Shown here in pieces: positions 44,431 through 61,314 of a stretch of DNA of 64,000 bases (positions within the stretch are counted from its first letter, which is position 1; each line of letters begins with the position of its first letter). Position numbers and translations under genes: made by a program. A model generated the notes under the pieces. It was given only the letters and a program-made list of their open reading frames with translations, did no database searches and was not told the origin of the DNA. Source of the stretch: Kaistia geumhonensis (GTDB lineage Bacteria; Pseudomonadota; Alphaproteobacteria; Rhizobiales; Kaistiaceae); NCBI RefSeq assembly GCF_030815145.1, contig NZ_JAUSWJ010000001.1, positions 3,426,001-3,490,000 of the forward strand, given 5' to 3'.

Positions 44431-44447
44431 TGGTGGAGCCGAGGGGA
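44431..44447. repeat. Left attachment-like repeat (tRNA-Ala 3' end copy)
   Basis: TGGTGGAGCCGAGGGGA is identical to the + strand of the tRNA-Ala 3' end at 61298-61314. The match starts exactly at the CCA terminus and stops after 17 bp in the T-arm; flanking bases differ on both sides. This is the pattern left when an integrase duplicates the tRNA end. Confidence 0.65.
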
Positions 44448-44574
44448 GGCGCCACCGCTCGGCCGGCACCACGCAGCCTACAAGGCGTCGCTTTCGGTAG
44501 AGCCCCGAGCACTCGCCGACGACGACAGGGCGCTGGACTGTTTCACGCAGTGGTGCCGCGCAGAACCATCTGCG

Positions 44575-44707
44575 CCCTACCGTCGAGACCATCACACCGA
44601 AGCTGGCCGGGCCGTGCTTGCGGCAGACGTCAGCCGTCGCTGCTCCCGCCTCCTGCTCTCCTCAGCATCCCGATGATCTGCTCTTCCGTAAATCGTGAGG
44701 GGCGCAT
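44575..44707 (-). pseudogene. IS3-family transposase orfA remnant, frameshifted
   Basis: Read leftward from the ATG at 44707, the frame gives MRPSRFTEEQIIGMLR, the classic IS3 orfA start. An extra base then shifts the frame. The continuing frame reads AGAATADVCRKHGPASF, matching the normal helix-turn-helix region before similarity is lost. Only about 130 bp remain. The remnant is related to, but not the same as, the longer IS3 piece at 60520-61174. Confidence 0.75.
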
Positions 44708-44843
44708 CTTCCGTCCGTCTCCGTGAGTGACGGACTCTACTCAAATCTGGAGGAGGATCAGGGTCTCAGGTCAATCTGAGCGCCGTCACGTGCGCCGAGC
44801 AATCGGCGCGACCAACTGGTCGCTTGCGACATTTATATGATGT

Positions 44844-44861
44844 GATATTTCTACGGATATC
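44844..44861. promoter_or_regulatory. Island GntR operator candidate A
   Basis: GATATTTCTACGGATATC has perfect 5-bp arms (GATAT/ATATC) around an 8-bp spacer and lies 47 bp before the GTG at 44909. Similar palindromes lie upstream of five other island units. Confidence 0.55.
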
Positions 44862-44908
44862 TTGATGATGTTTCGAGGTGCCGTCCACGTGCCTCGCCAG
44901 CGCGCGGA

Positions 44909-46033
44909 GTGGCCTTGATCCCCGAACTTCTCCCGGACCACGAAGCGGCGTTCTCGCCGGATTATGCTAGCGCCCGCGCCAAGATCGCGACACTTGCGGG
45001 CGACCGGCCGGCGGCGGCGATCGCCTATGCCAACCCGAATGTCGGCCCGACGGGCGAGCCGCTGGCGACCGAGACCTATTGGTTCGGGCCGCGTGACGCG
45101 CGCGACGTTCTGGTGCTGGTTTCGGCGACGCATGGCGTCGAGGGCTTCTGCGGATCGGCCGCCGCCGCCGACTGGCTCCTCACCGGCGGGCCTGACCGGA
45201 TCGGCCCCTCGACCGCCGCTCTCATCGTTCATGCCATCAACCCGCATGGTTTCGCCTGGCTGCGCCGGACGACCGAGGAGGGGGTCGACCTCAACCGCAA
45301 CTGCATCGATTTTGACGCGCCCCTCCCGAAAAATGCCGGCTATGACGAGCTGGCGACGGCCTTCGTGCCGCGCTCGCTCGACGCGGAGACGCTCGCGCAG
45401 GCCGATGCGCGCATCACCGCCTATCGCAGCCTCCAGGGCGCTGTCGGCCTCGAACAGGCAAGGTCAAGCGGCCAATACACCCATCCCGAGGGGCTCTTCT
45501 ATGGCGGGACCGCGCCGGCCTGGTCGATTCGCACGCTGCATGCGCTTGCCGCCGATCACGGCCTCGCTGGGCGCCGAAACGTCGCGGTGATCGACTATCA
45601 TACCGGCCTCGGGCCGTTCGGCTATGGCGAGCCGATCTGCGGCCACCGCCCGGGCGAAAGTGGGCAGGCGCGCTGCCGCGACTGGTACGGGCCGAGCCTC
45701 GGCGAGCCGCTGCTCGGTCGCTCGTCCTCGCTGCCGATCGCCGGGCTCACGCAATATGCCTGGGCCGCCGCGGTCGGCGCCGAACGGCTCACCTTCATCG
45801 CGCTCGAATTCGGAACCTATCCGCCGGAGGAGGGCACGATCGCGCTCCGCGCCGATCACTGGCTGCACGCCTATGGCAAGCCGGACTGGTCGAGCGCGGA
45901 GACGCAGCGCATCAAGGCCGGCCTCCGCCGCTTCTATCATCCCGACACCCGCGACTGGCGGCAGATGGTGCTCTGCCGCAGCCGCATCGTCATCGACCAG
46001 GCGCTCGCGGGCATGGCCCGAACGAGCGACTGA
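44909..46033 (+). CDS. DUF2817 family M14-like metallopeptidase protein
   Basis: Protein of 374 residues related to zinc carboxypeptidases. The metal-binding HxxE is in SATHGVEGFCGSA, the substrate Arg lies in VDLNRNCIDFD, the third metal ligand His in VIDYHTGLGPFG and the likely catalytic Glu in IALEFGTYPPEEG. It may hydrolyse a terminal amide or amino-acid bond. The start is GTG at 44909 with only a weak GCGCGGA before it; TTG at 44915 is an alternative. There is no signal peptide, so it is cytoplasmic. It is first in a run of five forward genes (to 50194) and follows an operator-like palindrome. Confidence 0.83.
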   Translation: MALIPELLPDHEAAFSPDYASARAKIATLAGDRPAAAIAYANPNVGPTGEPLATETYWFGPRDARDVLVLVSATHGVEGFCGSAAAADWLLTGGPDRIGPSTAALIVHAINPHGFAWLRRTTEEGVDLNRNCIDFDAPLPKNAGYDELATAFVPRSLDAETLAQADARITAYRSLQGAVGLEQARSSGQYTHPEGLFYGGTAPAWSIRTLHALAADHGLAGRRNVAVIDYHTGLGPFGYGEPICGHRPGESGQARCRDWYGPSLGEPLLGRSSSLPIAGLTQYAWAAAVGAERLTFIALEFGTYPPEEGTIALRADHWLHAYGKPDWSSAETQRIKAGLRRFYHPDTRDWRQMVLCRSRIVIDQALAGMARTSD

Positions 46034-46068
46034 GCCTTGCCCATTCACCCTTCGACGGATCCCAGCCG

Positions 46069-46728
46069 ATGACGCGCATTCTCGTCCTCAATCCCAACAG
46101 CTCCGTCGGCGTGACCCGGGACATGGATGCCGCGCTCGACCTCCTGCGCTCGCCCGGCGGGCCGGCGATCGTCTGCGAGACGCTGTCAGAGGGGCCGCCC
46201 GGCATCGAGACGCAGCAGCATGTGGAAAGCGTCGTGCTGCCGATCGCCCGCCATTTCGCCGACCGCGAAGCCGACGCCTATGTCATCGGCTGCTTCTCGG
46301 ATCCGGGCCTGGCGCTCGCCCGCGAAAATCTGGCAAAGCCGGTGCTCGGCATCGCCGAATCCGCCTTTCATGTCGCCATCGGCCTCGGCCAGCGCTTCGG
46401 TATCGTGGCGATCAAGCAGGGCTCGATCCCGCGACATATGCGCCATGTGCGTAGCCTCGGCTTCGAGAGCCGGCTCGCCGGCGACCGGCCGCTCGGCGTC
46501 GGCGTCACGGAGATGTCGGGCGAGGGCGTGATCGACCGCATCGTCGCGGTCGGCCGCGAGCTGCGCGACCGCGACGGCGCCGACGTGCTGATCCTCGGCT
46601 GCGCCTCGATGGGAGGCTATCGGACGGCGGTGGAGGATGCGCTCGGCCTGCCGGTCGTCGACCCGACCCAGGCGGCGGTGGCGCGGGCGATCGCCCTTCT
46701 CTCGCTCGGCTACCGGAAGGCGGTGTAG
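46069..46728 (+). CDS. Aspartate/glutamate/hydantoin racemase family protein
   Basis: Racemase-fold protein of 219 residues beginning ILVLNPNSSVGVT, a hydantoin/Asp racemase opening. The two catalytic cysteines lie in VIGCFSDPGL and LILGCASMGGY. It would invert stereochemistry at an alpha carbon of an amino acid or hydantoin. It is followed within 3 bp by a dihydropyrimidinase-like hydrolase, the standard pairing in hydantoin use. Confidence 0.9.
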   Translation: MTRILVLNPNSSVGVTRDMDAALDLLRSPGGPAIVCETLSEGPPGIETQQHVESVVLPIARHFADREADAYVIGCFSDPGLALARENLAKPVLGIAESAFHVAIGLGQRFGIVAIKQGSIPRHMRHVRSLGFESRLAGDRPLGVGVTEMSGEGVIDRIVAVGRELRDRDGADVLILGCASMGGYRTAVEDALGLPVVDPTQAAVARAIALLSLGYRKAV

Positions 46729-46731
46729 CGC

Positions 46732-48081
46732 ATGGCATTCGATCTCATCCTGCGCGGCACCCTGGTCCGCACCGACGGGCTGATCGAGAACGGCTGGATC
46801 GCGATCGCCGGCGAGAAGATCGCGGCGATCGGAAGCGGCGCGGCGCCCGAGGCGGCGCTCACCGAGGATTTCGGCGACGCGCTGCTCTTTCCCGGCTTCG
46901 TCGACGGCCAGACGCATGCGACCAGCTATCGCGGGCTGCCAGGCTTCGCGGCGACCAGCCGTTCGGCGCTGGCCGGTGGCATCACGACCATGGTCGACAT
47001 GCCCTATGACAACCCGGACCCGCTGAACACGCTCGCGCGGCTCGAGGCCAAGGTGGAGGCGATCGAGACGCTGTCGCATTGCGACGTCGCCCTCTATGCG
47101 ACGGTCGCCCCCGGCCAGGGCACCGGCACCATGGTCGACCTCGCCAAGGCCGGCGTCTGCGCCTTCAAGATTTCCAGCATCGAGAGCCATCCCGTGCGCT
47201 TTCCGCGCCTGCCGGCCGACGAGACGCTCGCGATCCTGAAGGCGTCGGTCGAGACGGGGCTGCCCGTCGGCCTCCACAACGAGGACCAGGAGATCGTGCG
47301 GGCCGGCATTGCCGCGCTGAAGGCGACGGGACGCACGACGCCGGAATGGCACGAGCCGAGCCGGCCGCTCGCCGCGGAACTCACCGCCACGGCGCATTTC
47401 CTCGAGCTCGGCCGTGTGACCGGCGCGCATGTCCATATCGTCCACATCTCGCATCCGACCGGCTATGATCTCGTCGCGCGCTATCGCGACGAGGGCGTCA
47501 GGGCGACCGGAGAAATGTGCGTCCACTATCTCCATTTCGACGCGGGGCGCGACACGGCGCGGCTCGGCGCGCGCATGAAGGTGAGCCCTCCGATCAGGAC
47601 AGGCGTGCTCGACGCCCTCTGGCAGAAGCTCGCCGAGGACAAGTTCGCGCTCGTTTCCTCGGACCATTCGAGCTGGCCGGTCGACAACAAGCTCGTCCCT
47701 TCGATCTTCGATGCCGGTGCCGGTATTCCTGGCCTAGAGACGCTGGTGCCGTCCTTCTTCACCGATCTCCGTGGCCGCGTCGCGGACGCGGCCGGGCGGC
47801 TCTGCCTCGAGGTCTCGGAGAAGCCGGCGCGGCTTTTCGGTCTCTATGGCCGCAAGGGGGCGCTGCATCCCGGCTTCGACGCCGACGTGGCGGTTCTCGA
47901 ACAGGACGCTTTCCGTTTCGATGCCTCGGCGACCCGCGACGGGCTCAACTGGAGTCCCTATGACGGCGAGACCTTTGCCGCACGGATCGCCGCCACGTAT
48001 CTCCGCGGCCGCAAGGTCTTCGACGGAGCCGACATCATCGGCGCGCCGGGCGATGGCCGCTTCGTCAAGCGCGCCGCTTGA
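46732..48081 (+). CDS. Dihydropyrimidinase/allantoinase-like amidohydrolase
   Basis: Cyclic-amide hydrolase of 449 residues. It has the amidohydrolase opening FDLILRGTLVRTDG, the barrel metal site FVDGQTHATS, the carboxylated-Lys site VCAFKISSIE, His pairs in HVHIVHISHPTG and the catalytic Asp in VSSDHSSWPVDNK. The first His of the usual DxHxH is Gln here, so the binuclear centre may be altered. Expected action is opening of a cyclic amide such as hydantoin, dihydropyrimidine or allantoin. The ATG at 46732 lies 3 bp after the racemase stop. Confidence 0.88.
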   Translation: MAFDLILRGTLVRTDGLIENGWIAIAGEKIAAIGSGAAPEAALTEDFGDALLFPGFVDGQTHATSYRGLPGFAATSRSALAGGITTMVDMPYDNPDPLNTLARLEAKVEAIETLSHCDVALYATVAPGQGTGTMVDLAKAGVCAFKISSIESHPVRFPRLPADETLAILKASVETGLPVGLHNEDQEIVRAGIAALKATGRTTPEWHEPSRPLAAELTATAHFLELGRVTGAHVHIVHISHPTGYDLVARYRDEGVRATGEMCVHYLHFDAGRDTARLGARMKVSPPIRTGVLDALWQKLAEDKFALVSSDHSSWPVDNKLVPSIFDAGAGIPGLETLVPSFFTDLRGRVADAAGRLCLEVSEKPARLFGLYGRKGALHPGFDADVAVLEQDAFRFDASATRDGLNWSPYDGETFAARIAATYLRGRKVFDGADIIGAPGDGRFVKRAA

Positions 48082-48084
48082 GCC

Positions 48085-49386
48085 ATGGCGACAGAAACCT
48101 TCCAGCGCTCGCTCTGGTCGTCCCTCGCGCCACCCGCGCCGCGCACGCCGCCGCTTTCCGGCTCCGGCAAGGCGGATGTCGCGATCGTCGGTGCCGGCTT
48201 CCTCGGCCTCTCGACGGCGTTGCATCTCGCCGAGAGCGGCGCCAGCGTCGTGCTGCTCGAAGCGGAGGAGCCGGGCTTCGGCGCCTCCGGCCGCAATACC
48301 GGCTTCGTGGTGCCGAGCCTTCGCACCTCGCTTGGCCCAACCGATATCCGCGACCGTCTCGGCGAGCATGGCGAGCGGCTGACGGCGCTGGTCGGGCAGT
48401 CCGGCGATATCGTCTTCGACCTGATCCGCCGCCACGGCATCGCATGCAGCGCTGAGCAGACCGGCTGGATGCAGCCCGCGCATAGCGCGACGATGATGCG
48501 CGTGCTCGAGGCGCGGCAGGGCGACTGGGCGGCGCGCGGCCGCTCTGTGCTGATCCTCGACGCGGCGGAGACGAAGCGCCGGGCCGGCTTCGGTTCCTAT
48601 CACGGAGCGCTGCTCGATCCGACCGGCGGCCAGATCAACCCGCTCGCCTATGCGCGCGGCCTTGCCACCGCTGCGCTCGCGGCCGGCGCCGTCATCCACG
48701 CGGCGAGCCGGGTCATCGCCATCGACCGGCAGGGCGAGGGCTGGCGGGTGCGGACCGCCTCGGGCGAGATCAGGGCCGGCCGCGTGCTGCTCACCACCAA
48801 CGCGCTGGTCGGCTGCCTCAATCCTGCCATGGCGAGCTCGGTCATTCCGGTCCTCGTACATCAGATCGCGACGGAGCCGCTGTCCGAGGACCTGCGCCGG
48901 GACATCCTGCCAGGACGCTCGCCGCTCGCCGATACGCGGCGCCATACCTTCGCGCTGCGCTGGTCGCCCGATGGCCGCCTGGTCACCGGCGGCATGGTGC
49001 TGCCCGGCCCCGCCTCGCTTGCGCGCGCCAGCCGTGCATTCTTGAAGCGGCTCCGTCATTTCCTGCCGGGTCTCGGCACCATGCGCGCCGACTTCGTCTG
49101 GAACGGCGTCATCGCCGCGACGCTTGATCAAATGCCGCGCTTCGTCGAACTGGCGCCCGGCCTCGACGGCGCCATCGGCTGCAACGGTCGCGGCGTCGCG
49201 CTCACCACCGCGCTCGGCCGCGAGATCGCCGGCCTCTATGCGGGGCGGATCGCGGCCGACGCGTTTCCGCTGCCGCATGGACGGCCGGAAGCCGTGCCGG
49301 GCCATTTCCTCGCGCGCCATGGTCCGGCATTGTGGCTGCCCTGGAGCAATTGGCGCGATCATCTGGAGAGCGCCCGCGGCAACTGA
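48085..49386 (+). CDS. DAO-family FAD-dependent oxidoreductase
   Basis: Flavoprotein of 433 residues similar to glycine/D-amino-acid and gamma-glutamylputrescine oxidases. The FAD motif is VAIVGAGFLGLSTALHLAESG near residue 33, with ASGRNTGFVVPS downstream and a C-terminal GAIGCNGRGVALTTALG. It would oxidatively deaminate an amine or D-amino acid. It begins 3 bp after the hydrolase stop and is followed 19 bp later by the SDR gene, so it belongs to one operon. Confidence 0.92.
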   Translation: MATETFQRSLWSSLAPPAPRTPPLSGSGKADVAIVGAGFLGLSTALHLAESGASVVLLEAEEPGFGASGRNTGFVVPSLRTSLGPTDIRDRLGEHGERLTALVGQSGDIVFDLIRRHGIACSAEQTGWMQPAHSATMMRVLEARQGDWAARGRSVLILDAAETKRRAGFGSYHGALLDPTGGQINPLAYARGLATAALAAGAVIHAASRVIAIDRQGEGWRVRTASGEIRAGRVLLTTNALVGCLNPAMASSVIPVLVHQIATEPLSEDLRRDILPGRSPLADTRRHTFALRWSPDGRLVTGGMVLPGPASLARASRAFLKRLRHFLPGLGTMRADFVWNGVIAATLDQMPRFVELAPGLDGAIGCNGRGVALTTALGREIAGLYAGRIAADAFPLPHGRPEAVPGHFLARHGPALWLPWSNWRDHLESARGN

Positions 49387-49405
49387 CGGGCGAGGGAGAA
49401 GCTGC

Positions 49406-50194
49406 ATGAATCTCGGACTTGCCGGCAAGCGGGCCCTGGTGCTCGCCTCATCGCGCGGCCTTGGACTCGGCGTCGCGACGGCGCTGGTCGCCGAAGGCGC
49501 GCATGTCGTGATCACGGGCCGAAGCGCCGAAAAGCTCGACGCCGCTGCGGCGCGCCTCTCGGCCGGCGGGCCAGGCCGGGCAGAGGCGCTCGCCTGCGAC
49601 TTCGCGGCCGACGGCGCCGTCGCCGCGCTCGCGGAAGGAGCCGTCGCCCGGCTCGGCGGCGTCGATGTGCTCGTCAACAACACCGGCGGCCCGCCGCCCG
49701 GCAGCATCCTCGCGGTCGCGCCCGAGACCTGGGAGAAGCAGTTCGGCGCCATGGTGCGCAATGTCTTCGACCTGACGGGCCGGCTGGTGCCTGAAATGCG
49801 CGCGCGGGGCTGGGGGCGGATCCTTACCATCGCCTCGTCGGGCGTCGAGCAGCCGATCCCGGGTCTCGGCATCTCCAACGCCCTGCGCGCAGCGCTCGCA
49901 GGCTGGTCCAAGACGCTCGCCGAAGAGGTCGCGCGCGATGGCGTCACGGCCAATCTGATCCTGCCCGGCCGGATCCAGACGGAGCGCGTCGACGAGATCG
50001 ACCACGCCAATGCCGAGAAGAGCGGCAAGCCGGTCGAAGAGGTGGCGGCTGCCTCCCGCGCCGCGATCCCGGTCGGCCGCTACGGCACCGTAGAGGAATT
50101 CGCCGCCGTCGCTGCCTTCCTCGTCAGCGAGCCGGCAAGCTATGTCACCGGCAGCATGATCCGCTGCGATGGCGGCGCGATCCGGTCGGTCTGA
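49406..50194 (+). CDS. Atypical SDR-family oxidoreductase lacking Tyr-Lys
   Basis: SDR-fold protein of 262 residues with LVLASSRGLGLGVATAL and NNTGGPPPG. After the catalytic-region Ser (IASSGVEQ), the expected YxxxK is replaced by PGLGISNALRAALAG, as in a known subgroup with an SNxxRA pattern. Catalysis must therefore differ from the classical mechanism, or the protein may have another role. The GAGGGAGAAG ribosome-binding site precedes the ATG at 49406. The gene ends the forward operon; the opposing DHDPS-family gene stops at the next base. Confidence 0.85.
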   Translation: MNLGLAGKRALVLASSRGLGLGVATALVAEGAHVVITGRSAEKLDAAAARLSAGGPGRAEALACDFAADGAVAALAEGAVARLGGVDVLVNNTGGPPPGSILAVAPETWEKQFGAMVRNVFDLTGRLVPEMRARGWGRILTIASSGVEQPIPGLGISNALRAALAGWSKTLAEEVARDGVTANLILPGRIQTERVDEIDHANAEKSGKPVEEVAAASRAAIPVGRYGTVEEFAAVAAFLVSEPASYVTGSMIRCDGGAIRSV

Positions 50195-51130
50195 TCAGCT
50201 TCGGCGGATCGCAGCGAGGCGCTTCTCGAGCCGGTCCATGAGCCGGTCGAGTTCGACATGATCGAGCGCGTCCAGCTTCGGTCCCGGAGCGCGGACATGG
50301 GCAGAGGCGATGGCGCCGCGCCGGCGGAGGATTTCCTTGCGGATGGCGAGGCCGAGCCCCGGCTGTGTCTCGTGCCGGATCAGCGGCAGATGGGCGTCGA
50401 AGACATCTTCGGCGCCTTCGATGTCGCCGGCACGGGTGCGGTTCACGACCTCGACCAGCATCTCCGGATAGGCGTAGCCGGTCATGGCGCCGTCGGCGCC
50501 GCGAGCGAGTTCCTGCGGCAGGAAGAGACCGCCATTGCCGACCAGGATCGACAGGCGCCGCGTGCCCCGTTCTGCTTCGCCCCGGCGCAGTCGCGAGAGC
50601 TTGGAGAGTCCCGGCCAGTCCTCGTGCTTCAGCATGACGATCTGCAGGTGGCGCGCGAAGATCGCCTCCAGCGTCGGCACCGAGAAATGAACGCCGAGCA
50701 CGAGGGGAAAGTCCTGCAGCACGACCGGCACATCCGGCCCCAGCGCGGCGCAGACCGCTGCGAAATAGCCGGTCAGCTGCTCCTCTGTCTTAAGGCTCGG
50801 CTGCGGCGCCACCATGACGCCCGCGGCGCCGGCTGCCATCGCTTCATGCGCCAGCGCGACCATCGCCGACATGCCTGGATTGCTGACGCCGACGACGACG
50901 GGAATTCGGCCGGCGACACGGTCCAGCACCACCTTCATGAAGGCGCTGCTCTCTTCGGGTGACAGCTTCTGCGCCTCGCCCATCATGCCGAGAATGGTGA
51001 GGCCGGTGGCGCCGTGGCCGAGATAGAAGTCCGTCAGCCGCGCCGCGCTGTCGAGATCGAGCGCGCCGTCATCGGCGAAGGGGGTGGCGGAGATCGGAAA
51101 AACGCCGTTGGCGCTGGCATCAAGTCGCAT
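50195..51130 (-). CDS. DHDPS/NAL-family protein with altered active site
   Basis: TIM-barrel protein of 311 residues with the Schiff-base Lys in IVMLKHEDWPG. The usual Tyr motif YNxP is replaced by VVLQDFPLV, and the GSTGE motif reads ILGMMGEAQ. It therefore belongs to a divergent subgroup in which proton shuttling must differ. A pyruvate-dependent aldolase or a hydratase-aldolase reaction is possible. It is transcribed divergently from the DapB-like gene at 51337, with two operator-like palindromes between them. Confidence 0.87.
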   Translation of the reverse strand: MRLDASANGVFPISATPFADDGALDLDSAARLTDFYLGHGATGLTILGMMGEAQKLSPEESSAFMKVVLDRVAGRIPVVVGVSNPGMSAMVALAHEAMAAGAAGVMVAPQPSLKTEEQLTGYFAAVCAALGPDVPVVLQDFPLVLGVHFSVPTLEAIFARHLQIVMLKHEDWPGLSKLSRLRRGEAERGTRRLSILVGNGGLFLPQELARGADGAMTGYAYPEMLVEVVNRTRAGDIEGAEDVFDAHLPLIRHETQPGLGLAIRKEILRRRGAIASAHVRAPGPKLDALDHVELDRLMDRLEKRLAAIRRS

Positions 51131-51315: not shown

Positions 51316-51336
51316 AATCATCGGAGCCTGTTTGCC

Positions 51337-52461
51337 ATGCCTCAAGCCGCGCGTCCCATCCATGTCGTCCTGTTCGGTCTCGGCGCGCTCGGGTCGCTGG
51401 TCGTCCGCTGTCTCGCGGAGGGCTATCCGCTCATCCGCGTCGTCGCCGCCGTCGACCATGATCCGGCCAAGGCCGGCCGGAGGCTCGCCGAGCTCTACCC
51501 GGACTTTGCCGGGGCGGGCGAGATCGTGGTGCGAGGGAGCCTCGCCGAGGCGCTCGCCGCCGCGCCGGTGCCGGCCGACCTTCTCTATCACCTAACGGAA
51601 TCGGCTCCGGAGCGCATCGAACGGCAATTGCTTGAGGCGTTGGCGGCGGGGCTCGACGTGCTTTCCGCCTCGGAGGCGATGTTCCATCCCGCGCTTCGCC
51701 ATGCCGATTTCGCCGCCCGCCTCGATGCGGCCGCCCGCGCGAATGGCGTCACCGTTTCCGGCACCGGCATCAATCCGGGCTTCAGCTTCGACAGCGTGCC
51801 GCTGGTGCTGGCGCGCGCCACCTCGGGCGTGCGCCGTGTCACCATCACCCGCGCCATCGACGTGACCGGCACCGGTCCTGGCGACATCGACCATGTCGGC
51901 TATGCGCTGTGGCCGCGCGAGTTCGAGGAGAAGATCGCCTCGGGCCGGATCGTCGGCCACATGGGAATGCCGGAATCGATCGCCGCGATCGCGGAGCGGC
52001 TCGGCCTCGCCATCGATCGCGTCGAGGAGAAGTGGGAGACGGAAGTGGCGGATTTCCCGGTCGATTCCGGGACGCCGAGCCTCGGCATGATCGAGCCCGG
52101 CCGCGTGATCGGCATCACCCAGACCGGCCTCGGCCTCTCGGGCGACGAGACCGTGATCCGCATGAGCCTCATCATGTATTACGATCCCGAGCGGTTCGGC
52201 ATCGCGGCCGCCGACACGATCGAGATCGATGGCGCGCATCACATCCGCGCCAGCCTCAGGCCGGCGGCGCTGTCGCTATTCGGGGCGGCCAATGTGATCG
52301 TCAACGCCACGGCCGATGTGCATGGCGCCGCGCCGGGGCTCTACGACATGCTGGAGGCGCCGCTCGCTGGGGAGCGGCGCGGCGGCTTCCGCTATGTGCT
52401 CGACCCGGCGGCGGACGTTCGGCCAGGGGCGGTGCCGCTGAAGCGCGTGCCCTCGGCGTGA
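51337..52461 (+). CDS. DapB-like NAD(P)-binding dehydrogenase, paralogue 1
   Basis: Protein of 374 residues with an N-terminal Rossmann fold (HVVLFGLGALGSLVVR) related to dihydrodipicolinate reductase and 2,4-diaminopentanoate dehydrogenase. Later marks are SASEAMFHP, SGTGINPGFSFDS and GHMGMPESIAAIAE. The last two recur, nearly unchanged, in the paralogue at 58678. It likely acts as an amino-acid or imine dehydrogenase rather than in lysine synthesis. The ATG at 51337 is preceded by a good operator-like palindrome. It is the partner of the divergent DHDPS-family gene. Confidence 0.85.
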   Translation: MPQAARPIHVVLFGLGALGSLVVRCLAEGYPLIRVVAAVDHDPAKAGRRLAELYPDFAGAGEIVVRGSLAEALAAAPVPADLLYHLTESAPERIERQLLEALAAGLDVLSASEAMFHPALRHADFAARLDAAARANGVTVSGTGINPGFSFDSVPLVLARATSGVRRVTITRAIDVTGTGPGDIDHVGYALWPREFEEKIASGRIVGHMGMPESIAAIAERLGLAIDRVEEKWETEVADFPVDSGTPSLGMIEPGRVIGITQTGLGLSGDETVIRMSLIMYYDPERFGIAAADTIEIDGAHHIRASLRPAALSLFGAANVIVNATADVHGAAPGLYDMLEAPLAGERRGGFRYVLDPAADVRPGAVPLKRVPSA

Positions 52462-53785: not shown

Positions 53786-53836
53786 AGTCCCATCCCGCGC
53801 GCCTGCACCAATTTTCGTCGATTCGCCCCATGATAC

Positions 53837-53854
53837 TATATCAGCGTGCATATC
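53837..53854. promoter_or_regulatory. Island GntR operator candidate G (regulator's own promoter)
   Basis: TATATCAGCGTGCATATC matches the 5-8-5 pattern with one mismatch and lies 52 bp upstream of the regulator start at 53785, suggesting autoregulation. Confidence 0.5.
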
Positions 53855-53937
53855 TCGCGCACAGGCCGCCACCAGCCGCCCAGCCGCTGCCGAAGTGTCT
53901 CTCCGGGCACCGTGAAAAACGGCGCGACCGAATGTCA

Positions 53938-53957
53938 GATATTTTTACAGGAATATC
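53938..53957. promoter_or_regulatory. Island GntR operator candidate D
   Basis: GATATTTTTACAGGAATATC has perfect 6-bp arms (GATATT/AATATC) with an 8-bp spacer and ends 51 bp before the flavoprotein start at 54008. The spacer is two bases longer than in site B. Confidence 0.5.
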
Positions 53958-54007
53958 AAAGATACGCTATAACCCGATTGACCGGAGCGGTTTTCAGGGA
54001 GCGTCGG

Positions 54008-55576
54008 ATGAATGAGATGCGGCACGCAGCGATCGGGGTGGCGGACGACTATGCCCGTGCCCTTTCGGCGAGGCTGGAGCTCGATCATGCGGCGCTCAGA
54101 AGCGGGCTGAAGCCGCCCTATTGCCCACCTCCGCTCGCCGATGCCGGCGCGCGTCTCGATGTGCTAACGCGGCGGGTGCGCCACGACCTTGCCATTCTCA
54201 ATTATCCCAAGGACGACTGGGTTCTGCCGCGCAGTCATCCCGCCGGTCATCACGTTCATGACGTGGTCATCGTCGGCGGCGGCCAGTGCGGCATGACGGT
54301 CGCCTTCGCGCTGATGCGCGACCGCGTCTCCAACATCGTCATCCTCGACCGGGCGCCGAAAGGCCGCGAGGGGCCGTGGGTCACCTATTCGCGCATGTGG
54401 ACACTGCGCTCGCCCAAGCACGTCACCGGGCCCGATCTCGGCGTGCCTTCGCTTGCGCCGCGGTCCTGGTTCGAGGCGGTGTTCGGCGAGGAGGGCTGGG
54501 AACAGCTCGGCAAATGGCCGCGTCAGGCGTGGCAGGCCTATCTCGACTGGTATGGCGCGGCGCTGGAGCTGCCGATCCGCAACGAGACCGAGGTCACCGG
54601 CTTCTCGGACGAAGACGGTCTGGTCCGCCTCGAGATCCGAGGCGGCGAACACGTTTATGCGCGCAAGGTCGTGCTGGCGACCGGCCTCGAGGGCATCGGC
54701 GACTGGCATGTGCCCCCCTTTATCCGCGAGAAGATGCCGCGCGGTCGCTATACTCTCGCCACGGACGACGTCGACAGCCTCGACTGGAAGGGAAGCCGCG
54801 TCGCCATGCTCGGCGCCGGTGCCACAGCCTGGGACCGGGCCGCCGACCTCCTGGAACTCGGCGCCTCGGCGCTGACGCTCTATATGCGCCGTCCGCAGAT
54901 TCTGACCGCCAATCCGTTCCGCTATCTGGAAAAGGCCGGCTATCTGCGCCACTTCGCGTCCATGTCGGATGCCGACAAATGGCGGTGGATCCAGGCCGTG
55001 TTCCGCTTCGGCCAGCCCCCGACGCAGGATGGCGTCGACCGCTGCGCCGCCTTCGCCAATTTCCGCCTGCATGGCGGCGCCTCCTGGTCCGATGTCGAGG
55101 AGACGGCGGAGGGCGTCCGCGTGACGGGCAGCGACGGCTCGATCGCGATGTTCGACCATCTCTTCATCGGCTGCGGATTCTCCATGGACCCGCGCAACCG
55201 GCCGGAACTGGCCCCGCTCGCCGACAACATCGCGACCTGGGCGGACCGCTTTACGCCGCCGGAAGACCAGCCGGATTCCTGGCTGATCACCTATCCCTAT
55301 CTCAACCGCGATCTTTCCTTCGTCGAGAAGGTGCCGGGCCGGACGCCGGTGCTTCGCAACATGTTCTGCTTCAACTACGGCGCCACCGTCACCAATGCCC
55401 ATTCGGGCGCGTCGCTGTCCGGGCTTCGCTACGGTATCGAGCCGCTCATCCACGGCATCACCTATGCGCTCTGGGTCGAGGACGAGCCGGTCCATTACGA
55501 GCGCACGCGCAGCTGGTCGGTCATCGACACCGACCCCGCGCCGCTCGCCGGCCATCTCTGGCGCCCGGACGACTAG
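54008..55576 (+). CDS. FAD/NAD(P)-binding monooxygenase-like protein
   Basis: Flavoprotein of 522 residues. An N-terminal helical lead of about 85 residues precedes the FAD site VVIVGGGQCGMTVAFALM. A second nucleotide-binding motif, VAMLGAGATAWDRAADLL, lies near residue 265. The pattern resembles flavin monooxygenases (lysine/ornithine hydroxylase or Baeyer-Villiger type), although the canonical family fingerprint is not seen. It could hydroxylate or oxidise the compound handled by the island. ATG at 54008 has AGGGAGCG upstream and follows an operator-like palindrome. It ends at a strong bidirectional hairpin. Confidence 0.83.
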   Translation: MNEMRHAAIGVADDYARALSARLELDHAALRSGLKPPYCPPPLADAGARLDVLTRRVRHDLAILNYPKDDWVLPRSHPAGHHVHDVVIVGGGQCGMTVAFALMRDRVSNIVILDRAPKGREGPWVTYSRMWTLRSPKHVTGPDLGVPSLAPRSWFEAVFGEEGWEQLGKWPRQAWQAYLDWYGAALELPIRNETEVTGFSDEDGLVRLEIRGGEHVYARKVVLATGLEGIGDWHVPPFIREKMPRGRYTLATDDVDSLDWKGSRVAMLGAGATAWDRAADLLELGASALTLYMRRPQILTANPFRYLEKAGYLRHFASMSDADKWRWIQAVFRFGQPPTQDGVDRCAAFANFRLHGGASWSDVEETAEGVRVTGSDGSIAMFDHLFIGCGFSMDPRNRPELAPLADNIATWADRFTPPEDQPDSWLITYPYLNRDLSFVEKVPGRTPVLRNMFCFNYGATVTNAHSGASLSGLRYGIEPLIHGITYALWVEDEPVHYERTRSWSVIDTDPAPLAGHLWRPDD

Positions 55577-55644: not shown

Positions 55645-55659
55645 GTCATGGTAGTGCCG

Positions 55660-57186
55660 CTACTTCAGGACGGCTTCGAGGAAGCGGATGCTGCGCTCAT
55701 GCTGCGGACGCTCGAAGAAATCGGCGGCCGAGGCGATCTCGACGATCTGACCGCCATCCATGAACACGATCCGGTCCGCGACGCGCCGCGCGAAGCCCAT
55801 CTCGTGGGTGGCGACCAGCATGGTCATGCCGCTCGCGGCGACGTCCTCCAGAACCTGCAGCACCTCGCCGACCAGTTCCGGGTCGAGCGCCGAGGTCGGC
55901 TCGTCGAACAGCATCACGTCGGGACGCATCGCGAGCGCGCGGGCGATGGCGACGCGCTGGCGCTGGCCGCCGGAGAGATGGTTGGGGAAGGTCATCATCT
56001 TGGCTCCGAGCCCGACGCGCGCCAGCAGTTCGGCGGCGAGGAGCCCCGCCTCCCGGCCGGCGACGTGCCGAACGCGGATCAGCCCTTCGGTGACATTCTC
56101 GATCGCGAGCTTGTGCGGCCACAGATTGAAGTGCTGGAAGACCATGCCGACATGCGAGCGCAGCCTTGCCAGTTCGCGGCCGGAGACGGCCGGCGCAGCG
56201 GGTCCGAAGGCGAGATCGAAGCCGGCGCCGCGCGAGTGGATGCCAATCTGGCCGGCATCGGGACGCTCGAGCATGTTGATGCAGCGCAGAAGCGTGCTCT
56301 TCCCCGAGCCGCTCGGCCCCAGCACGCAGACGACCTCGCCCTCCTGGACGGTGAGGCTCACGCCGGAAAGCGCATTGACGGTACCGAAGCGCTTCTCGAG
56401 CCCGACGATGTCGAGCACGCGCCGTCCGCTGTCGGGCTTCTCGGCGAGCAGCGCGGGCGCATCGGTCGCCGGCGCGAAATCGGTGGCGCCGCCGAAGCCC
56501 AGCCGGCGCAGGCGGCGGCGGGAGGGCGGGCGCTTGTCGAAGGCGACATAGTGCTCGAGCGCCAGCTGACCGATCGCCAGGAACGAGGTGAGGAACAGGT
56601 AGATCGCGCCGGCGACGATCAGGGCCTCCAGGGCGCGGAACGTGTTCGAGTAGATGAAGGTCGTCGTCAGCAGCAGTTCGCGCACCGTCACCACGGAGGC
56701 GAGCGAGGTGCTTTTCACATGGCTGATGAAGTTGCTCATATAGGGCGGCGTCACGACCTGAACCGCCTGCGGCAGGATGATGTGCCACAGGATTGTCGGA
56801 TAGCTCATGCCGACCGCGCGCGCCGCCTCGATCTGCCCCGGCTGGATCGCCTGCAGGCCGGCGCGCAGCACTTCGGCATTGTAGGCGGCCGAGGTGATGG
56901 AGAAGGCGATGATCGCCGCCGGCAGCGGTTCGAGCGTGATGCCGATTGTTGGCAGGCCGAAATAGATCAGGAAGAGATGGATCAGCGGCGGGGTGCCGCG
57001 TGCGATCCAGATATAGAGGAAGGCGGGGACGGAGAGGATCTTCAGCGGCGACATGCGGGCGAGCGCCAGCAGGAAGCCGCATACGGTTCCGATGACCTGC
57101 GAGGTGATCGCCAGAAAGATGGTCATCAGCGTCGCCTGGAAGAGTAGCGGCGCATAGGGAAGGATCGAGGCGAAGTCGAGGCTCAT
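55660..57186 (-). CDS. Amino-acid ABC transporter: permease fused to ATPase
   Basis: One chain of 508 residues. Residues about 1-225 are a HisMQ-type permease (QATLMTIFLAITSQVIGTV, EAA loop EAARAVGMSYPTILWHIILP). After a linker of about 40 residues (RPPSRRRLRRLGFGG), residues about 260-508 form a polar-amino-acid ATPase. That part has Walker A GPSGSGKST, LSGGQRQRVAIARALAM, LFDEPTSALDP and THEMGFARRVAD. In most genomes these are separate subunits. The start at 57186 (MSLDFAS) was chosen over an upstream frame that lacks membrane character. It pairs with the binding protein at 57361, and its single permease probably forms a homodimer. Confidence 0.92.
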   Translation of the reverse strand: MSLDFASILPYAPLLFQATLMTIFLAITSQVIGTVCGFLLALARMSPLKILSVPAFLYIWIARGTPPLIHLFLIYFGLPTIGITLEPLPAAIIAFSITSAAYNAEVLRAGLQAIQPGQIEAARAVGMSYPTILWHIILPQAVQVVTPPYMSNFISHVKSTSLASVVTVRELLLTTTFIYSNTFRALEALIVAGAIYLFLTSFLAIGQLALEHYVAFDKRPPSRRRLRRLGFGGATDFAPATDAPALLAEKPDSGRRVLDIVGLEKRFGTVNALSGVSLTVQEGEVVCVLGPSGSGKSTLLRCINMLERPDAGQIGIHSRGAGFDLAFGPAAPAVSGRELARLRSHVGMVFQHFNLWPHKLAIENVTEGLIRVRHVAGREAGLLAAELLARVGLGAKMMTFPNHLSGGQRQRVAIARALAMRPDVMLFDEPTSALDPELVGEVLQVLEDVAASGMTMLVATHEMGFARRVADRIVFMDGGQIVEIASAADFFERPQHERSIRFLEAVLK

Positions 57187-57360
57187 CAGGGTCCGTTTCG
57201 AACGGCGGTCTCGGGGAGCCGGGCACGGCATGGCGCCCGGCCGATAGCGCGCAGCCAAGCAACAGGCGTGCCGAAGCGGCGCGCCAGCGAAGGCGGGGAC
57301 GATGTGCGGCGCTCCGAACGTGCCCTTGCGACAGCGCCCGGAGCGACTCCAAACGGTGGG

Positions 57361-58176
57361 CTACTTCTTGGCCGGCGCGTCCTGGCCGATCGGCGGCAGG
57401 GCCGCGTCGTAATCGTCGAGGTCGAAGCTCGCCTTGGCCATCTTGTTGATCGTGCCGTCGCTGCGGGCGTCGGAAATGATCTTGTCGAGAGCGGCCTTCA
57501 TCTCGGGCGAGCCCTTCGGCAGCGGATAGCCGACAAGGTTGACCTTGTAGGGCTTGCCGACGATCTTCGCGATGCCGGGGCGGGCCTTCATGAACTCGGC
57601 GGCCTGCTTGTCGCCGACGATCGCCACCTCGATGCGCCCGGCGACGAAGTCGGCGAACTGCTCGGCGACACCCGGATAGACCTTCAGTTCCTTGTAGCCG
57701 CCGATCTCGCGGACGACGTCGTCGCCATCGGCGCCGATCGGCGCGCCGACGATCTTGTCCTTGATATCGGTCGGTCCGGTGACCGCCGAGTCGGGCGGAA
57801 CCATGGCGACGATCGCCGTGCGCGAATAGGGTACGGAGAAATCGAACACTTCCTGGCGCGCCGGCGTGATGTTGACGCCCGAGCAGATCATCTCGGTCCT
57901 GCCCGAGGTGATGGAGGGCAGCAGCCCTTCCCAGGCGAGAACGCCGAGATCGAGCTTCACGCCGAGCTTGTCGGCGATCAGGTTGCACATGTCGACCTCG
58001 TAGCCGACCGGCTTGCCCGAGGCGTCCATCATGACGTTCGGGCGGTCGTTGCCCGTAGTGAGGGCATGCATCACGCCTTCGGACTTGATCTTGGCGAGGT
58101 CGTCGGCGACGGCCGGTGCCGTGCCGGCGATCGCTGCCAGAACCGCCGCGGCGAGGGTCTTGGAGAGGAAGGTCAT
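57361..58176 (-). CDS. Periplasmic polar amino-acid-binding protein (SBP family 3)
   Basis: Binding protein of 271 residues with the signal peptide MTFLSKTLAAAVLAAIAGTA ending near AVADDL. Family-3 marks are KPVGYEVDMCNLIADKLGV, SGRTEMICSGVNITPARQEVFDFSVPYSR and the late VAGRIEVAIVGDK. It supplies substrate to the fused permease-ATPase. It is separated from that gene by 174 bp, a longer gap than usual, which could hold a weak attenuator. It is divergent from the YciI-like gene at 58385. Confidence 0.92.
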   Translation of the reverse strand: MTFLSKTLAAAVLAAIAGTAPAVADDLAKIKSEGVMHALTTGNDRPNVMMDASGKPVGYEVDMCNLIADKLGVKLDLGVLAWEGLLPSITSGRTEMICSGVNITPARQEVFDFSVPYSRTAIVAMVPPDSAVTGPTDIKDKIVGAPIGADGDDVVREIGGYKELKVYPGVAEQFADFVAGRIEVAIVGDKQAAEFMKARPGIAKIVGKPYKVNLVGYPLPKGSPEMKAALDKIISDARSDGTINKMAKASFDLDDYDAALPPIGQDAPAKK

Positions 58177-58316
58177 CGGATCCTGTTCCCTGAAAGGTGT
58201 GCCGGAGCGTGCCGGACGCTGCTTCTGGCGTCTTGCATGTCCTCCCTAACCGCCCCTACCGCGTGCCTTCTGGAGAGCCGCTGGTTTATGTGCCGGAGCG
58301 TCGACACGATCGAACA

Positions 58317-58342
58317 ATATCACTTGAAGTGTCAAGTGATAT
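58317..58342. promoter_or_regulatory. Perfect 10-bp-arm palindrome in divergent promoter
   Basis: ATATCACTTG and CAAGTGATAT are exact complements separated by AAGTGT. The site lies between the divergent binding-protein (58176) and YciI-like (58385) genes. It contains GTGATAT, shared with sites A and C, but in outward orientation, so it may be bound by the same GntR protein in another mode or by a different regulator. Confidence 0.55.
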
Positions 58343-58384
58343 ATCTATGGTCGTTCCGAAGCCGCTTCCGGGGAGCCGTCCGCA

Positions 58385-58678
58385 ATGTTCATGGTCACGT
58401 CCAGCTATGCCGCGCCGGCCGAGGCGATCGCCGCCGCGCTGCCGGCGCATCGCGCCTGGGTCGGCGCGCTCTATGACCGAGGCGTATTCATCCTGTCGGG
58501 GCGACTGAAGCCGGCCACGGGCGGCTTCATGCTGGCCGTCGGCGTCTCGCGCGCCGAGCTGGAGGCGATCCTCGCCAGCGATCCTTTCCGCCTCGCCGGT
58601 CTCTTGACCCATACGATCACCGAGCTCGAGCCGACGCGCCACGCGCCGGAGCTCGATGCATGGAAGGAGCGCTTCTGA
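58385..58678 (+). CDS. YciI-like protein
   Basis: Small protein of 97 residues with the YciI fold: FMVTSSYAAP, HRAWVGALYDRGVFILSGR with the conserved His, and LASDPFRLAGL with the Asp-Pro pair. YciI proteins are small enzymes or accessory factors, some with dehalogenase-like roles. Its stop shares one base with the start of the DapB-like gene (TGATG), so the two are coupled. Confidence 0.83.
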   Translation: MFMVTSSYAAPAEAIAAALPAHRAWVGALYDRGVFILSGRLKPATGGFMLAVGVSRAELEAILASDPFRLAGLLTHTITELEPTRHAPELDAWKERF

Positions 58679-59736
58679 TGCATGCCGCCATCTTCGGCTT
58701 CGGCAATCTCGGGCGCGCGATCCTCGCCGCTCTCGCGAAGCGCCCGCCATTCTCGGTCGGAGCCATCGTCGATACGGCGCCCGGCCTCGCCGGCGCTCCG
58801 ACGGCATCGGTCTTTCCCGCGGGCGGCGACTGCGGAACGATCCTGCCGTCGCTGCCGCCGGCCGATCAGCCCACGGTGCTCTTCCACGCCTCGACGTCGG
58901 AGCCGGCGCGCGCGACGGCCGAGATCGTCGCCGCGCTCGAGGCGGGCTATAGCGTCGTCTCGGCGGCCGAATGGCTGTTTCATCCCTGGCTGCGTCATGG
59001 CACCGAAGCCGCTACCATCGACGCCGCAGCCCGCAGGGCTGGGACGGTGGCGATGGGCTGCGGCGTCAATCCCGGCTTCTGCTTCGAGACGCTGCCGGTT
59101 CTGGTTTCGCGGACCATGGCGGAAGTGAACCGGTTCGAGATTCTGCGTGTCTCCAATGTGAGCGGCGTCGGTCCGGCCGATTTCGCGCATCTCGGCTTCG
59201 GCCTCACCGAGACCGATTTCAGAGCGCGCGTTGCAGAGGGCTCGATCGAGGGGCATATGGGATTCCCGGAATCGATCGCCGCGCTCGCCGAATGCACGGG
59301 CGTCGCGATCGACGCCATTGACGACCGGCTCGAGCCGACGCTGGCACTGAGGCCGGTCACGCTCGCGCACCGGACCGTTGCGCTCGGCGAGGTCGCCGGC
59401 ATTACGCAGGTCGCGCGCGGATATCGCGGCGGCGAGCCGGTCATCGCCATGACGCTCGACATGTTCCTCGATCCCGAATTCTACGGCCGCAGGCCGCGCG
59501 AGGCGTTGCGTATCGAGGGCAGCCGAACGGTCGAGCTCGACATCAGCCCGGCTGCTCCGCCCGTTCCCGGAGCAGCCGCTATGATGGTGCATGCGGCCGA
59601 GGCTCTCGGCGTGATGTCTCCGGGCCTTGCAAGCCTGCTTGATCTGCCGATCGGCGGCGGGCGGTTGTCGCGACAGCTCTGTGCCGGGCCGGCCGAACGC
59701 GACGGCAGTGGAAGCCGCTTCTCGATCGACAACTGA
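58678..59736 (+). CDS. DapB-like NAD(P)-binding dehydrogenase, paralogue 2
   Basis: Protein of 352 residues, paralogous to the 51337 product. It has the Rossmann motif AAIFGFGNLGRAILAAL, SAAEWLFHPWLRHG, GCGVNPGFCFET and the shared GHMGFPESIAALAE. It is 22 residues shorter, mostly because of a shorter first domain. The likely role is an amino-acid or imine dehydrogenase. It is coupled to the YciI-like gene and sits beside the amino-acid transporter. A decayed gene follows directly on the other strand. Confidence 0.85.
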   Translation: MHAAIFGFGNLGRAILAALAKRPPFSVGAIVDTAPGLAGAPTASVFPAGGDCGTILPSLPPADQPTVLFHASTSEPARATAEIVAALEAGYSVVSAAEWLFHPWLRHGTEAATIDAAARRAGTVAMGCGVNPGFCFETLPVLVSRTMAEVNRFEILRVSNVSGVGPADFAHLGFGLTETDFRARVAEGSIEGHMGFPESIAALAECTGVAIDAIDDRLEPTLALRPVTLAHRTVALGEVAGITQVARGYRGGEPVIAMTLDMFLDPEFYGRRPREALRIEGSRTVELDISPAAPPVPGAAAMMVHAAEALGVMSPGLASLLDLPIGGGRLSRQLCAGPAERDGSGSRFSIDN

Positions 59737-59744
59737 GCGGCCGC

Positions 59745-60440
59745 GCCGGTATCGAGGCCGTCCTTTGGCCATGACGACCGCACCGGCCAGGTTTCCAGCG
59801 CCTTCGTTCAGACGCGGCACGAGCACCCCGCGCGCATGCGAGGGGAGGAGTATGATCTGCGTGAAGAGCGGGCCGGCCTCCGGCCCGCGCGGCACGAGCC
59901 GGTCGAAGGTCTGAGCGTATATTGATCCGGTATCGTCACGACATTGAACGGCTGGCCGCGATAGCCGAGATCGGCGGTGGCGGGGATGATTTCGAAGCCC
60001 TGAGCCGGCCCCTCCGGCCATGCCATGGAGATGCCCGGCATGATGGCGGCGGTGCGGAAGCCGGATCGTGCGGCGAGATGTTGGAGGCCCGCCCGGCGGC
60101 TCGCGAGCAGCGCCCGATAGCGCGTCTGGCTGGAAATCGTCAGACCGGATTCGAGCGGGCTATGCGCGAGCCAGCTCTGTCCGCACTCGACGGGCGAGGT
60201 CAGCCAGCCTGACCGCATGGCGAGCCCGCGGCGGCGAGGCGGGGCTTGGAGGATTGCAGCGTCGCGCGATGGGTCGGGGCCTAGAGCGGATTGTCGAAGC
60301 CGGTCCGGTCGTAGCTCTCGACGAACACGACGAGTACGTCGCGGCCAGCGAGTCGGCCTAAGTGGCCGGAAGGCCCCCGCAAAGGCGTCGCTCGCGGCCC
60401 CGGCGCCGAAGCGAACGGGATCGGTCGCGTCTCAGCATAG
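59745..60440 (-). pseudogene. Decayed sulfatase-like (alkaline-phosphatase superfamily) gene
   Basis: Read leftward, three frames together restore one protein. RDVLVVFVESYDRTGFDNPL ends at a stop (near 60285). MRSGWLTSPVECGQSWLAHS through MAWPEGPAQ to YRGQPFNVVTIPDQYT follows, then after a frameshift FDRLVPRGPEAGPLFTQIIL. The VFVESY opening and GQSWLAHS stretch match sulfatase/phosphoethanolamine-transferase-like proteins. The N-terminal membrane part is missing, cut off at the IS3 remnant. One nonsense mutation and at least two frameshifts make it a clear pseudogene. Confidence 0.75.
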
Positions 60441-60519
60441 CTGTCGGCATGACCGGCGTCGGGCTTCGTGGCGTGCCTTCAACGGCAGGCGAACAGGGAG
60501 CGCGCCGGCGACTCCGGCC

Positions 60520-61174
60520 GCCAGGACGCCAGCATGTCAGAGACGAAGTTCAGGCTCCACCGCTGGTTCGGCCCCTCTGGCAGCGCCATGGGCGCCCGCG
60601 TGCCCAGCGCCCGCTTGCAGCCGTCGCGCTTCTTCGTCGTGAGCGCTCCTCGCGATAGAGCCGGAACAACTTCTTGTGGTTCAGATCGATACCTTCCTGT
60701 CGCAGCAGGATATGCAGCCGCCGATAGCCGAACCGCCGCCGTTCAGGCGCCAGTTCTTTCAGCCGCGTCTGCAGGGCGGGATCGTCCAGCCGCCGTGACG
60801 CATAGCGATAGGTCTCTGGTTCGAGCCAGATCAGGCCTCATGCACGCCGCTGCGAGTAGCTTTTCTCTTCGATCGCCCAAGTCACGAACGCTCTCCGCGA
60901 TCCAGGCTTCAGAGTTTTTTTCCAAGCGCCTCGCGCAGCGTGGCAACGTCGAGCATCGATTCCGCCAAGAGCTTCTTGAGCTTGAGGTTCTCGTCCTCAA
61001 GCGCCTTCAACCGCCGCGCCTCGACACTTCCATGCTGCCGTAGCGACTCCGCCAATTGTAGAACGTCGTATCGCTGATCCTGTGCTTCCGGCAGACATCC
61101 GCCGCCGCAATCCCGGCCTGATGCTCTTTCAGGACCGCAATGATCTGCTCTTCGCTGAACCGGCTCTTCTTCGT
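60520..61174 (-). pseudogene. Decayed IS3-family insertion sequence (orfA and part of orfB)
   Basis: orfA, reading from 61174, gives KKSRFSEEQIIAVLKEHQAG with ACG where the ATG is expected. It continues to FYNWRSRYGSMEVS, where one missing base near 61020 shifts the frame into the leucine-zipper part ALEDENLKLKKLLAES. orfB follows from about 60900 with ERRRFGYRRLHILLRQEG, KLFRLYREER and, after another shift, LGTRAPMALPEGPNQRWSL. It then stops abruptly near 60520, so the catalytic DDE core is mostly lost. No function is expected. Confidence 0.85.
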
Positions 61175-61297
61175 CTCCGTCTCCTTCCGACGGAGTCCAA
61201 TTCAGACCGAGGGCATTTCAGGGGGGCAAGGTCACTTGTGCTGACCGCGATACGTGGCCCCTATGAGAATACTGCCGCCGCAACGTGTTGATTTGAT

Positions 61298-61314
61298 TGG
61301 TGGAGCCGAGGGGA
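61298..61314. repeat. Right attachment-like repeat inside tRNA-Ala 3' end
   Basis: TGGTGGAGCCGAGGGGA (complement of the tRNA 3' end including CCA) repeats exactly, in the same orientation, at 44431-44447. This is the usual core location of tRNA-targeting integrases. Confidence 0.65.

Follow-up and report, generated by a model that had tools for sequence, protein, structure and literature searches.

A probable relic of an integrative genomic island at the tRNA-Ala(CGC) gene of Kaistia geumhonensis

Introduction

The 3' end of a tRNA-Ala(CGC) gene is present twice in a 64,000-nucleotide stretch of the Kaistia geumhonensis genome (contig NZ_JAUSWJ010000001.1, positions 3,426,001 to 3,490,000; hereafter the window, with positions counted from its first letter), and the two copies enclose 16.9 kb of DNA with catabolic genes. 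An initial annotation of the window had taken this region for a fixed island whose mobility genes have decayed. The locus raises the question of whether the enclosed DNA was inserted at the tRNA gene by site-specific recombination and, if so, by which enzyme. Our analysis indicates, with a probability of about 0.92, that the region is the relic of an integrative genomic island inserted at the 3' end of tRNA-Ala(CGC), whose mobility functions have decayed. This conclusion is based on the repeat, the tRNA gene, a scrap of a tyrosine integrase that adjoins the repeat, orthologs of the same geometry in relatives, the distribution of the cargo and the constraint on its codons.

The genome under study (4,587,821 bases), labelled G000 in our comparisons, was placed in the same genus as G001 (most likely Kaistia soli DSM 19436, an identity deduced by us), in the Kaistiaceae, Hyphomicrobiales. 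It was compared with a genus set of 14 genomes (G000 included), a family set of 28 genomes and a wider set of 40 relatives. The sister genome, G013, is a metagenome-assembled genome labelled Bosea sp. G015 represents another genus of the same family and G022 a third genus, both outside the Kaistia set.

A repeat of the tRNA-Ala 3' end joined to an integrase fragment

Three features define the two ends of the region:

61298..61373, minus strand: tRNA-Ala(CGC), the putative integration target (ARAGORN; Rfam RF00005, 64.6 bits)
44431..44447, plus strand: displaced 17-nt copy of the tRNA-Ala 3' end, the putative relic of the tRNA-distal attachment (att) site (exact pattern search)
44437..44615, plus strand: decayed, frameshifted tyrosine integrase fragment corresponding to codons 145 to about 203 of 473, with its start inside the repeat (tblastn and blastn)

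The 17-mer TGGTGGAGCCGAGGGGA is located at 44431-44447 and 61298-61314, on the plus strand in both cases, and the second of these copies is the last 17 nt of tRNA-Ala(CGC) read on that strand. Because the tRNA gene lies on the minus strand, the left copy falls on its 3' side, as expected of a displaced end. The exact and direct duplication on the correct side of the tRNA that had been described initially was thus confirmed, and the whole genome contains these two exact copies and no further one. A chance match had been judged unlikely, and this judgement was borne out by dinucleotide shuffles: with up to 2 mismatches allowed, they yielded 0.01 matches on average, versus the 2 observed. When real positions of the window served as decoys, 24 of 4,846 (0.5%) had a prefix of at least 17 nt repeated within 30 kb leftward, presumably for the most part owing to paralogous genes. 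Since repeats as long as this one occur at 0.5% of the decoy positions, the repeat alone is suggestive rather than decisive, and it is the adjoining integrase scrap that decides.

The initial statement that an integrase is absent has to be corrected in this respect. The integrase of G013 matched the window at 44437-44577 in one frame, with 72% identity over 47 residues, and at 44564-44638 in the next frame (tblastn, E 3e-18), and its gene aligned with 44441-44615 at 78% over 175 bp in blastn. The scrap is nearest to the integrases of G013 (72% amino acid identity) and G001 (70%), the other 12 of the 14 matches listed being at 49% or less. It ends at about codon 203, where an IS3-type scrap begins. 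The distance from the start of the 17-mer to codon 145 is 6 bp in the window versus 556 bp in G013 and G001; on this alignment, the window lacks approximately 550 bp of the sequence that separates the att copy from codon 145 in G013. The att copy of the window is identical to that of G013 through TGGTGGAGCCGAGGGGAG. At the corresponding internal site of the intact integrases, agreement with the tRNA end is limited to 7 of 17 positions (1 of the first 9), and the repeat in the window is therefore not simply integrase sequence. Since the integrase between the island ends is a frameshifted fragment rather than an intact gene, we classed the region as a decayed relic and not as a working island, and neither excision nor integration by the broken integrase of the island itself would be expected. 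The proposed decay of the mobility genes is thereby supported, with the integrase reduced to a scrap rather than missing.

The same tRNA site in other Kaistia genomes

The 17-mer recurs exactly in G013, 8 kb from tRNA-Ala(CGC) (34 nt at 88% identity), and an integrase gene lies between the two copies. Its 473-aa product is of the tyrosine type and matches DUF6538 (29.0 bits) and Phage_integrase (23.6 bits, below the Pfam cut-off of 27.1). An intact integrase begins 124 bp past the start of the second 17-mer copy in both G013 and G001 (385928-387337 on contig C9 in the latter), at the same tRNA. An integrase between the repeats, which the initial annotation had suggested looking for in relatives, is thus present in intact form in two of them. 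Both islands resemble the window in the use of tRNA-Ala(CGC), in the 17-mer and in the tRNA-distal position of the integrase, which reads toward the tRNA. They differ from it in their intact integrases, in their cargo and in the spacing of the repeats, which is 17.5 kb in G001 and 8.0 kb in G013.

Within the genus set, the exact 17-mer was found in 11 of the 14 genomes, and a second copy beside the tRNA only in G000, G001 and G013; the two additional copies of G012 are on a different contig. These are also the only genomes with integrase matches of at least 70% (100% in G013, 90% in G001 and 72% for the scrap in G000), all others being at 50% or less. The genus genomes with a second exact copy keep the tRNA end, and a repeat without a copy at the tRNA, the counter-case named in the initial annotation, was not seen. 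G004 and G005 contain a one-base variant of the tRNA end, and no second copy with up to 3 mismatches was detected in the approximately 17.7 kb fetched on the island side. The assembly of G006 is fragmented, and no exact copy of the 17-mer was shown there.

We also compared the DNA downstream of the tRNA pairwise among 13 genomes (G006 left out; approximately 16–18 kb each, the window being longer; matches of at least 250 bp). Segments shared at 75% or more were found for the pairs G001–G013, G002–G009, G002–G010 and G000–G007, and G007–G013 and G000–G013 match at 64–69% only, over 284–656 bp. By this comparison, the tRNA-Ala(CGC)–yggT locus is a variable island site in Kaistia, where the neighbouring DNA differs in almost every genus member compared.

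A further observation concerns G012, whose contig C4 (127 kb) contains partial tRNA-Ala-like copies of 47 and approximately 70 nt at 102378 and 123530 (L124 and L125), 21 kb apart, with an integrase domain approximately 0.9 kb after each. They perhaps represent another type of element that uses the same tRNA.

Distribution of the integrase family

When named genomes were scanned with the G013 integrase, 34 loci were obtained, and IMG/VR contributed one more. Four of these 35 loci (L167–L170) were unassessable, as the start of the match lies within the gene or at the edge of a contig. In 24 of the 31 assessable loci, the tRNA-Ala-like end TGGTGGAGC... is present 119–147 nt upstream of the match start, and this includes every assessable locus with an identity of 51% or more. 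The named hosts belong to the Hyphomicrobiales. Twenty-two of the 24 loci were submitted to a whole-genome search for the 17-mer (G013 and G001 had already been done), in which 21 genomes were searched. All 21 contain an intact tRNA-Ala with the same 17-mer as the integrase-side copy, the anticodon being CGC in 6 and GGC in 15, and a reversed-pattern control gave no match in any of them. A further match to the degenerate pattern was found in 10 of the 21 genomes. In the 11 genomes where both copies are on one contig, they are always direct, at a spacing of 5.9–20.3 kb, and the integrase occupies the tRNA-distal end. In most tRNA islands, the integrase adjoins the tRNA. The window fits the pattern of this integrase family in its 16.9-kb spacing and in its layout.

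The 50,697 phage records searched contained no match to the integrase at E 1e-20, IMG/VR provided the single relative mentioned above, and 72,556 plasmid records gave three matches with 30–53% identity. A phage origin was rejected on the lack of a match among the phage records and the single IMG/VR relative. No genes for conjugation or phage structure were present among the Pfam matches of those island frames that were scanned, which were part of the total.

Borders of the island

Both borders carry additional gene remnants:

44614..44745, minus strand: IS3-type OrfA-like scrap abutting the integrase fragment (aligned part 44614-44686, right end set by eye), sharing 77% identity with the right remnant over 73 bp
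59808..60528, minus strand: broken piece of a sulfatase-family gene, 80% identical in DNA to G007 (PF00884 in the G007 protein)
60640..61240, minus strand: broken IS3-type remnant with OrfA and, by eye, part of OrfB, ends approximate (HTH_Tnp_1, PF01527, 8e-15 for the OrfA part)

Of the IS3 remnants that had been placed at both ends, the right one is well identified, whereas the left one is a short OrfA-like scrap, the 25-residue peptide of which has no Pfam match. The two have the same orientation but are diverged and do not form a matched pair. A composite transposon of the IS3 type was accordingly rejected, as no matching IS copies surround the cargo.

To locate an empty site, we searched the 40 relatives for the flanks on the left (38000-44430) and on the right (61298-63200). 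G013 and G001 were the only relatives with both flanks on one contig and no more than 40 kb apart, and in each of the two the flanks are separated by other DNA. The expected junction of the 43317-44186 region with the tRNA, predicted initially for strains without the island, was found in no relative searched; elsewhere this region lies 86–90 kb from the tRNA (G005/G004), on another contig, or is weakly matched. The left flank from 38000 to 44197 is 94% identical to G013, where it ends 8.1 kb before the repeat, and in G001 it ends 14.3 kb before the repeat. The two stretches outside the tRNA-distal repeat, L033:11690-19807 in G013 (8.1 kb) and L117:5457-19803 in G001 (14.3 kb), are mutually dissimilar (blastn, E 1e-15), and the variable zone therefore reaches beyond the att-bounded island. 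In the left flank itself, two similar amidohydrolase genes are arranged in tandem (42431-43300 and 43317-44186); they are paired also in G013 and G005, and the gene is apparently single in G001, G004 and G007.

Cargo genes and their distribution

The following genes were identified between the scraps:

44909..46033, plus strand: DUF2817 protein (PF10994, 5e-102)
46069..46728, plus strand: Asp/Glu/hydantoin racemase family protein (PF01177, 7e-53)
46732..48081, plus strand: cyclic amidohydrolase, hydantoinase/allantoinase-like (best NCBIfam match ErtD, 478 bits, below the cut-off of 600)
48085..49386, plus strand: FAD-dependent amino-acid oxidase-like protein, DAO (PF01266, 3e-62)
49484..50194, plus strand: short-chain dehydrogenase (SDR), start uncertain (PF13561)
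50195..51130, minus strand: DHDPS/aldolase family protein (PF00701; codon-position bias)
51337..52461, plus strand: 2,4-diaminopentanoate dehydrogenase-like protein (PF19328; NF040740, 193 bits, below the cut-off of 400)
53000..53872, minus strand: GntR/FCD regulator (PF07729, PF00392)
53846..55576, plus strand: FAD/NAD(P)-dependent oxidoreductase (PF13454 and others; codon-position bias)
55660..57258, minus strand: ABC transporter, permease and ATPase in one frame (PF00005, PF00528)
57361..58176, minus strand: amino-acid-type solute-binding protein (PF00497, 1e-29)
58660..59736, plus strand: second 2,4-diaminopentanoate dehydrogenase-like protein (PF19328; NF040740, 170 bits, below the cut-off)

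ARAGORN also called a tRNA-Pro at 55935-56023. This call lies within the frame of the ABC transporter and below the Rfam thresholds, and was set aside as a probable false positive. The cargo is of an amino-acid or amide catabolic type, and our guess at its substrate is an amide, a hydantoin or an unusual amino acid.

For the 15 kb of cargo between the scraps, an alignment over most of the length was obtained at one place in the 40 relatives, namely in G015, where it is colinear at approximately 80% from 44821 to 59744, with two gaps; the short-chain dehydrogenase gene remains unaligned there (gap 49374-50214). G022 contains several of the cargo genes in a diverged form (67–73%) within approximately 12 kb of one contig, and pieces of the cargo occur at two places in G011. 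The cargo was not found in the sister genome G013. Among the 28 family genomes, an ortholog of the amidohydrolase (83%) is present only in G015, the other matches listed being at 58% or less. The case in which these genes are core across the family, named initially as an argument against an island, was therefore not encountered, and by its distribution the cargo is not part of the family core. The mismatches to G015 concentrate at one codon position over most of the cargo, so that the cargo genes seem to have been kept under purifying selection though the island itself is dead.

Proposed history and alternative explanations

These observations suggest the following history, of which we infer the order of events, the route of the deletion and the delivery of the cargo by the element of this integrase. 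The first step would have been recombination, by a tyrosine integrase, between the chromosomal tRNA and a short attP core corresponding to approximately the final 17 nt of the tRNA gene. The outcome would have been a reconstituted tRNA at one border and, 16.9 kb from it, the displaced 17-nt fragment; the integrase gene would have been placed at this tRNA-distal border, in the orientation that reads toward the tRNA. During the subsequent decay, the IS3-type scrap would have come to abut the integrase at about codon 203, and the missing stretch of approximately 550 bp was probably lost across a short imperfect match between the att copy (CGAGGGGAG) and the integrase gene (AGAGGCGAG). The island would no longer be able to excise with its own enzyme, and the 15-kb cargo of amino-acid or amide catabolism would have stayed under purifying selection. 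It is likely that the cargo arrived with this very integrase.

Several findings weigh against this reading. The GC content of the island (0.65–0.72 per kb) resembles that of the rest of the window, and the composition gives no support. An empty site was not recognised in the 12 genus relatives compared (G006 left out), the site being too variable. Immediately outside the left repeat, a stretch of 234 bp (44197-44430) lacks a counterpart in G013, where 8.1 kb of other DNA takes its place, and gave only short weak matches in the fetched loci of relatives, so that in these alignments the left border is not established base by base. The DNA outside the left repeat is variable too. As to the integrase family, 7 of the 31 assessable relatives, all with 50% identity or less, are without the TGGTGGAGC copy. 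Three of them are Methylobacterium loci (42–45%; L157, L159 and L160) that bear TGGCGGAGACGGAGGGA at 139–144 nt, which may represent a switch of the target tRNA within the family, and the other four (40–50%) are without any upstream copy of a tRNA end. Third copies of the 17-mer without an ARAGORN tRNA, which account for 2 of the 10 genomes with a further match, occur at G059:C23:2125 (L229) and G063:C79:176112 (L221); they are unexplained, and are perhaps further integrated elements. In G015, the cargo starts approximately 285 bp from a different tyrosine integrase (L118:5266-6699; Arm-DNA-bind_3 and Phage_integrase), and two different integrases are therefore found in association with the same cargo. 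The stretches fetched around this copy contain neither a tRNA nor a direct repeat of at least 14 nt between both sides. Finally, the cargo was not seen beside the integrase family of the window in other genomes.

The final nucleotides of the left repeat overlap the beginning of the integrase similarity, and this overlap, together with the 0.5% of window positions that have repeats as long to their left, could be taken to mean that what lies at 44431 is not an att site but part of an old integrase pseudogene that resembles the tRNA end by chance or drift. We consider this highly improbable, because the intact integrases match the tRNA end so poorly at that place and because a true copy precedes the gene in G013 and G001, as it does in 24 of the 31 assessable relatives with these two included. 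Vertical inheritance of the cargo as an old cluster of the family, with losses in most members and an incidental location by the tRNA, is also unlikely. Its 80% DNA identity to G015 is within the range of the flanking genes between the two genera (ppa 85%, yggT region 73%), G022 and G011 hold a diverged version of several genes and scattered pieces, respectively, and the GC content is not unusual. However, only G015 of the 28 family genomes has an amidohydrolase ortholog above 58%, another island occupies the site in the sister genome, and the cluster of G015 itself lies beside an integrase.

The most probable of the alternatives is that the site is a mosaic, in which the integrase, the cargo and the tRNA-proximal remnants are separate insertions stacked at one tRNA hotspot, the cargo having entered an older, decaying island by another route, such as another integrase or recombination between IS remnants. 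The IS3-type scraps at both island ends, the different integrase near the cargo of G015 and the variability of the DNA beside the tRNA in almost all genus members compared agree with such a history. The sulfatase gene that is broken here also has an intact relative in G007, approximately 1.1 kb from the same tRNA, whereas in G013 and G001 its relatives are on other contigs and not near this tRNA (G000 has one intact 72% paralog elsewhere); a remnant common to the window and G007 on the tRNA-proximal side suggests that insertions have been stacked here. The window and G007 are also identical over the first 10 nt after CCA, but G011 shares 9 of the 10, which makes this a weak point. On the other hand, the diverged IS scraps do not form a matched composite transposon, and the 16.9-kb spacing is inside the 5.9–20.3 kb range of the cases with an intact integrase. 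We consider a mosaic somewhat less likely than not.

Comparison with known islands and implications

As a probable relic of an integrative island, the region can be compared with described systems. According to the available text on Islander, such islands have a regenerated tRNA at one end, a displaced 3' tRNA fragment at the other and a length of 2–200 kb (PMC4383910), and the region agrees with this in its tRNA and fragment ends, their side and orientation, and its length. The same text requires an integrase frame (PMC4383910), whereas the integrase here is a scrap of approximately 60 codons, so that the Islander filter would probably reject the region. In Sinorhizobium meliloti, islands at tRNA genes are flanked by direct repeats of 12–98 bp, and one tRNA gene has been reused, so far as the available text describes them; the window is similar in its tRNA-site island, its direct repeats and the repeated use of one tRNA gene (PMC11476347). 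The hotspots named in that text are tRNA genes 010, 030 and 039, and tRNA-Ala is not named among these (PMC11476347). In literature searches on Kaistia islands, tRNA-Ala islands in Rhizobiales, tRNA-Ala hotspots, Islander and DUF6538 integrases, no listed paper was concerned with this integrase family or site by its title or the start of its abstract.

The type of element is textbook, and the window contains a well-supported, ordinary decayed tRNA island with its metabolic genes intact. It illustrates that, even where no intact integrase accompanies a 17-nt repeat of a tRNA tip, comparison of the adjoining scrap with relatives can lead to the enzyme responsible. We further consider it reasonably probable, from the loci compared here, that one integrase family across the Hyphomicrobiales reads little beyond the approximately 17-nt tip of tRNA-Ala and therefore follows it across the isoacceptors CGC and GGC. 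Such a family would keep a fixed layout, in which the att core precedes the integrase start by approximately 125 nt and the integrase occupies the tRNA-distal end, and would trade cargo freely at the site; the island in the window would then be a fossil of this family overlooked by integrase-based finders. The conserved spacing between att and gene in this tRNA-Ala integrase family could serve to find more such decayed islands.

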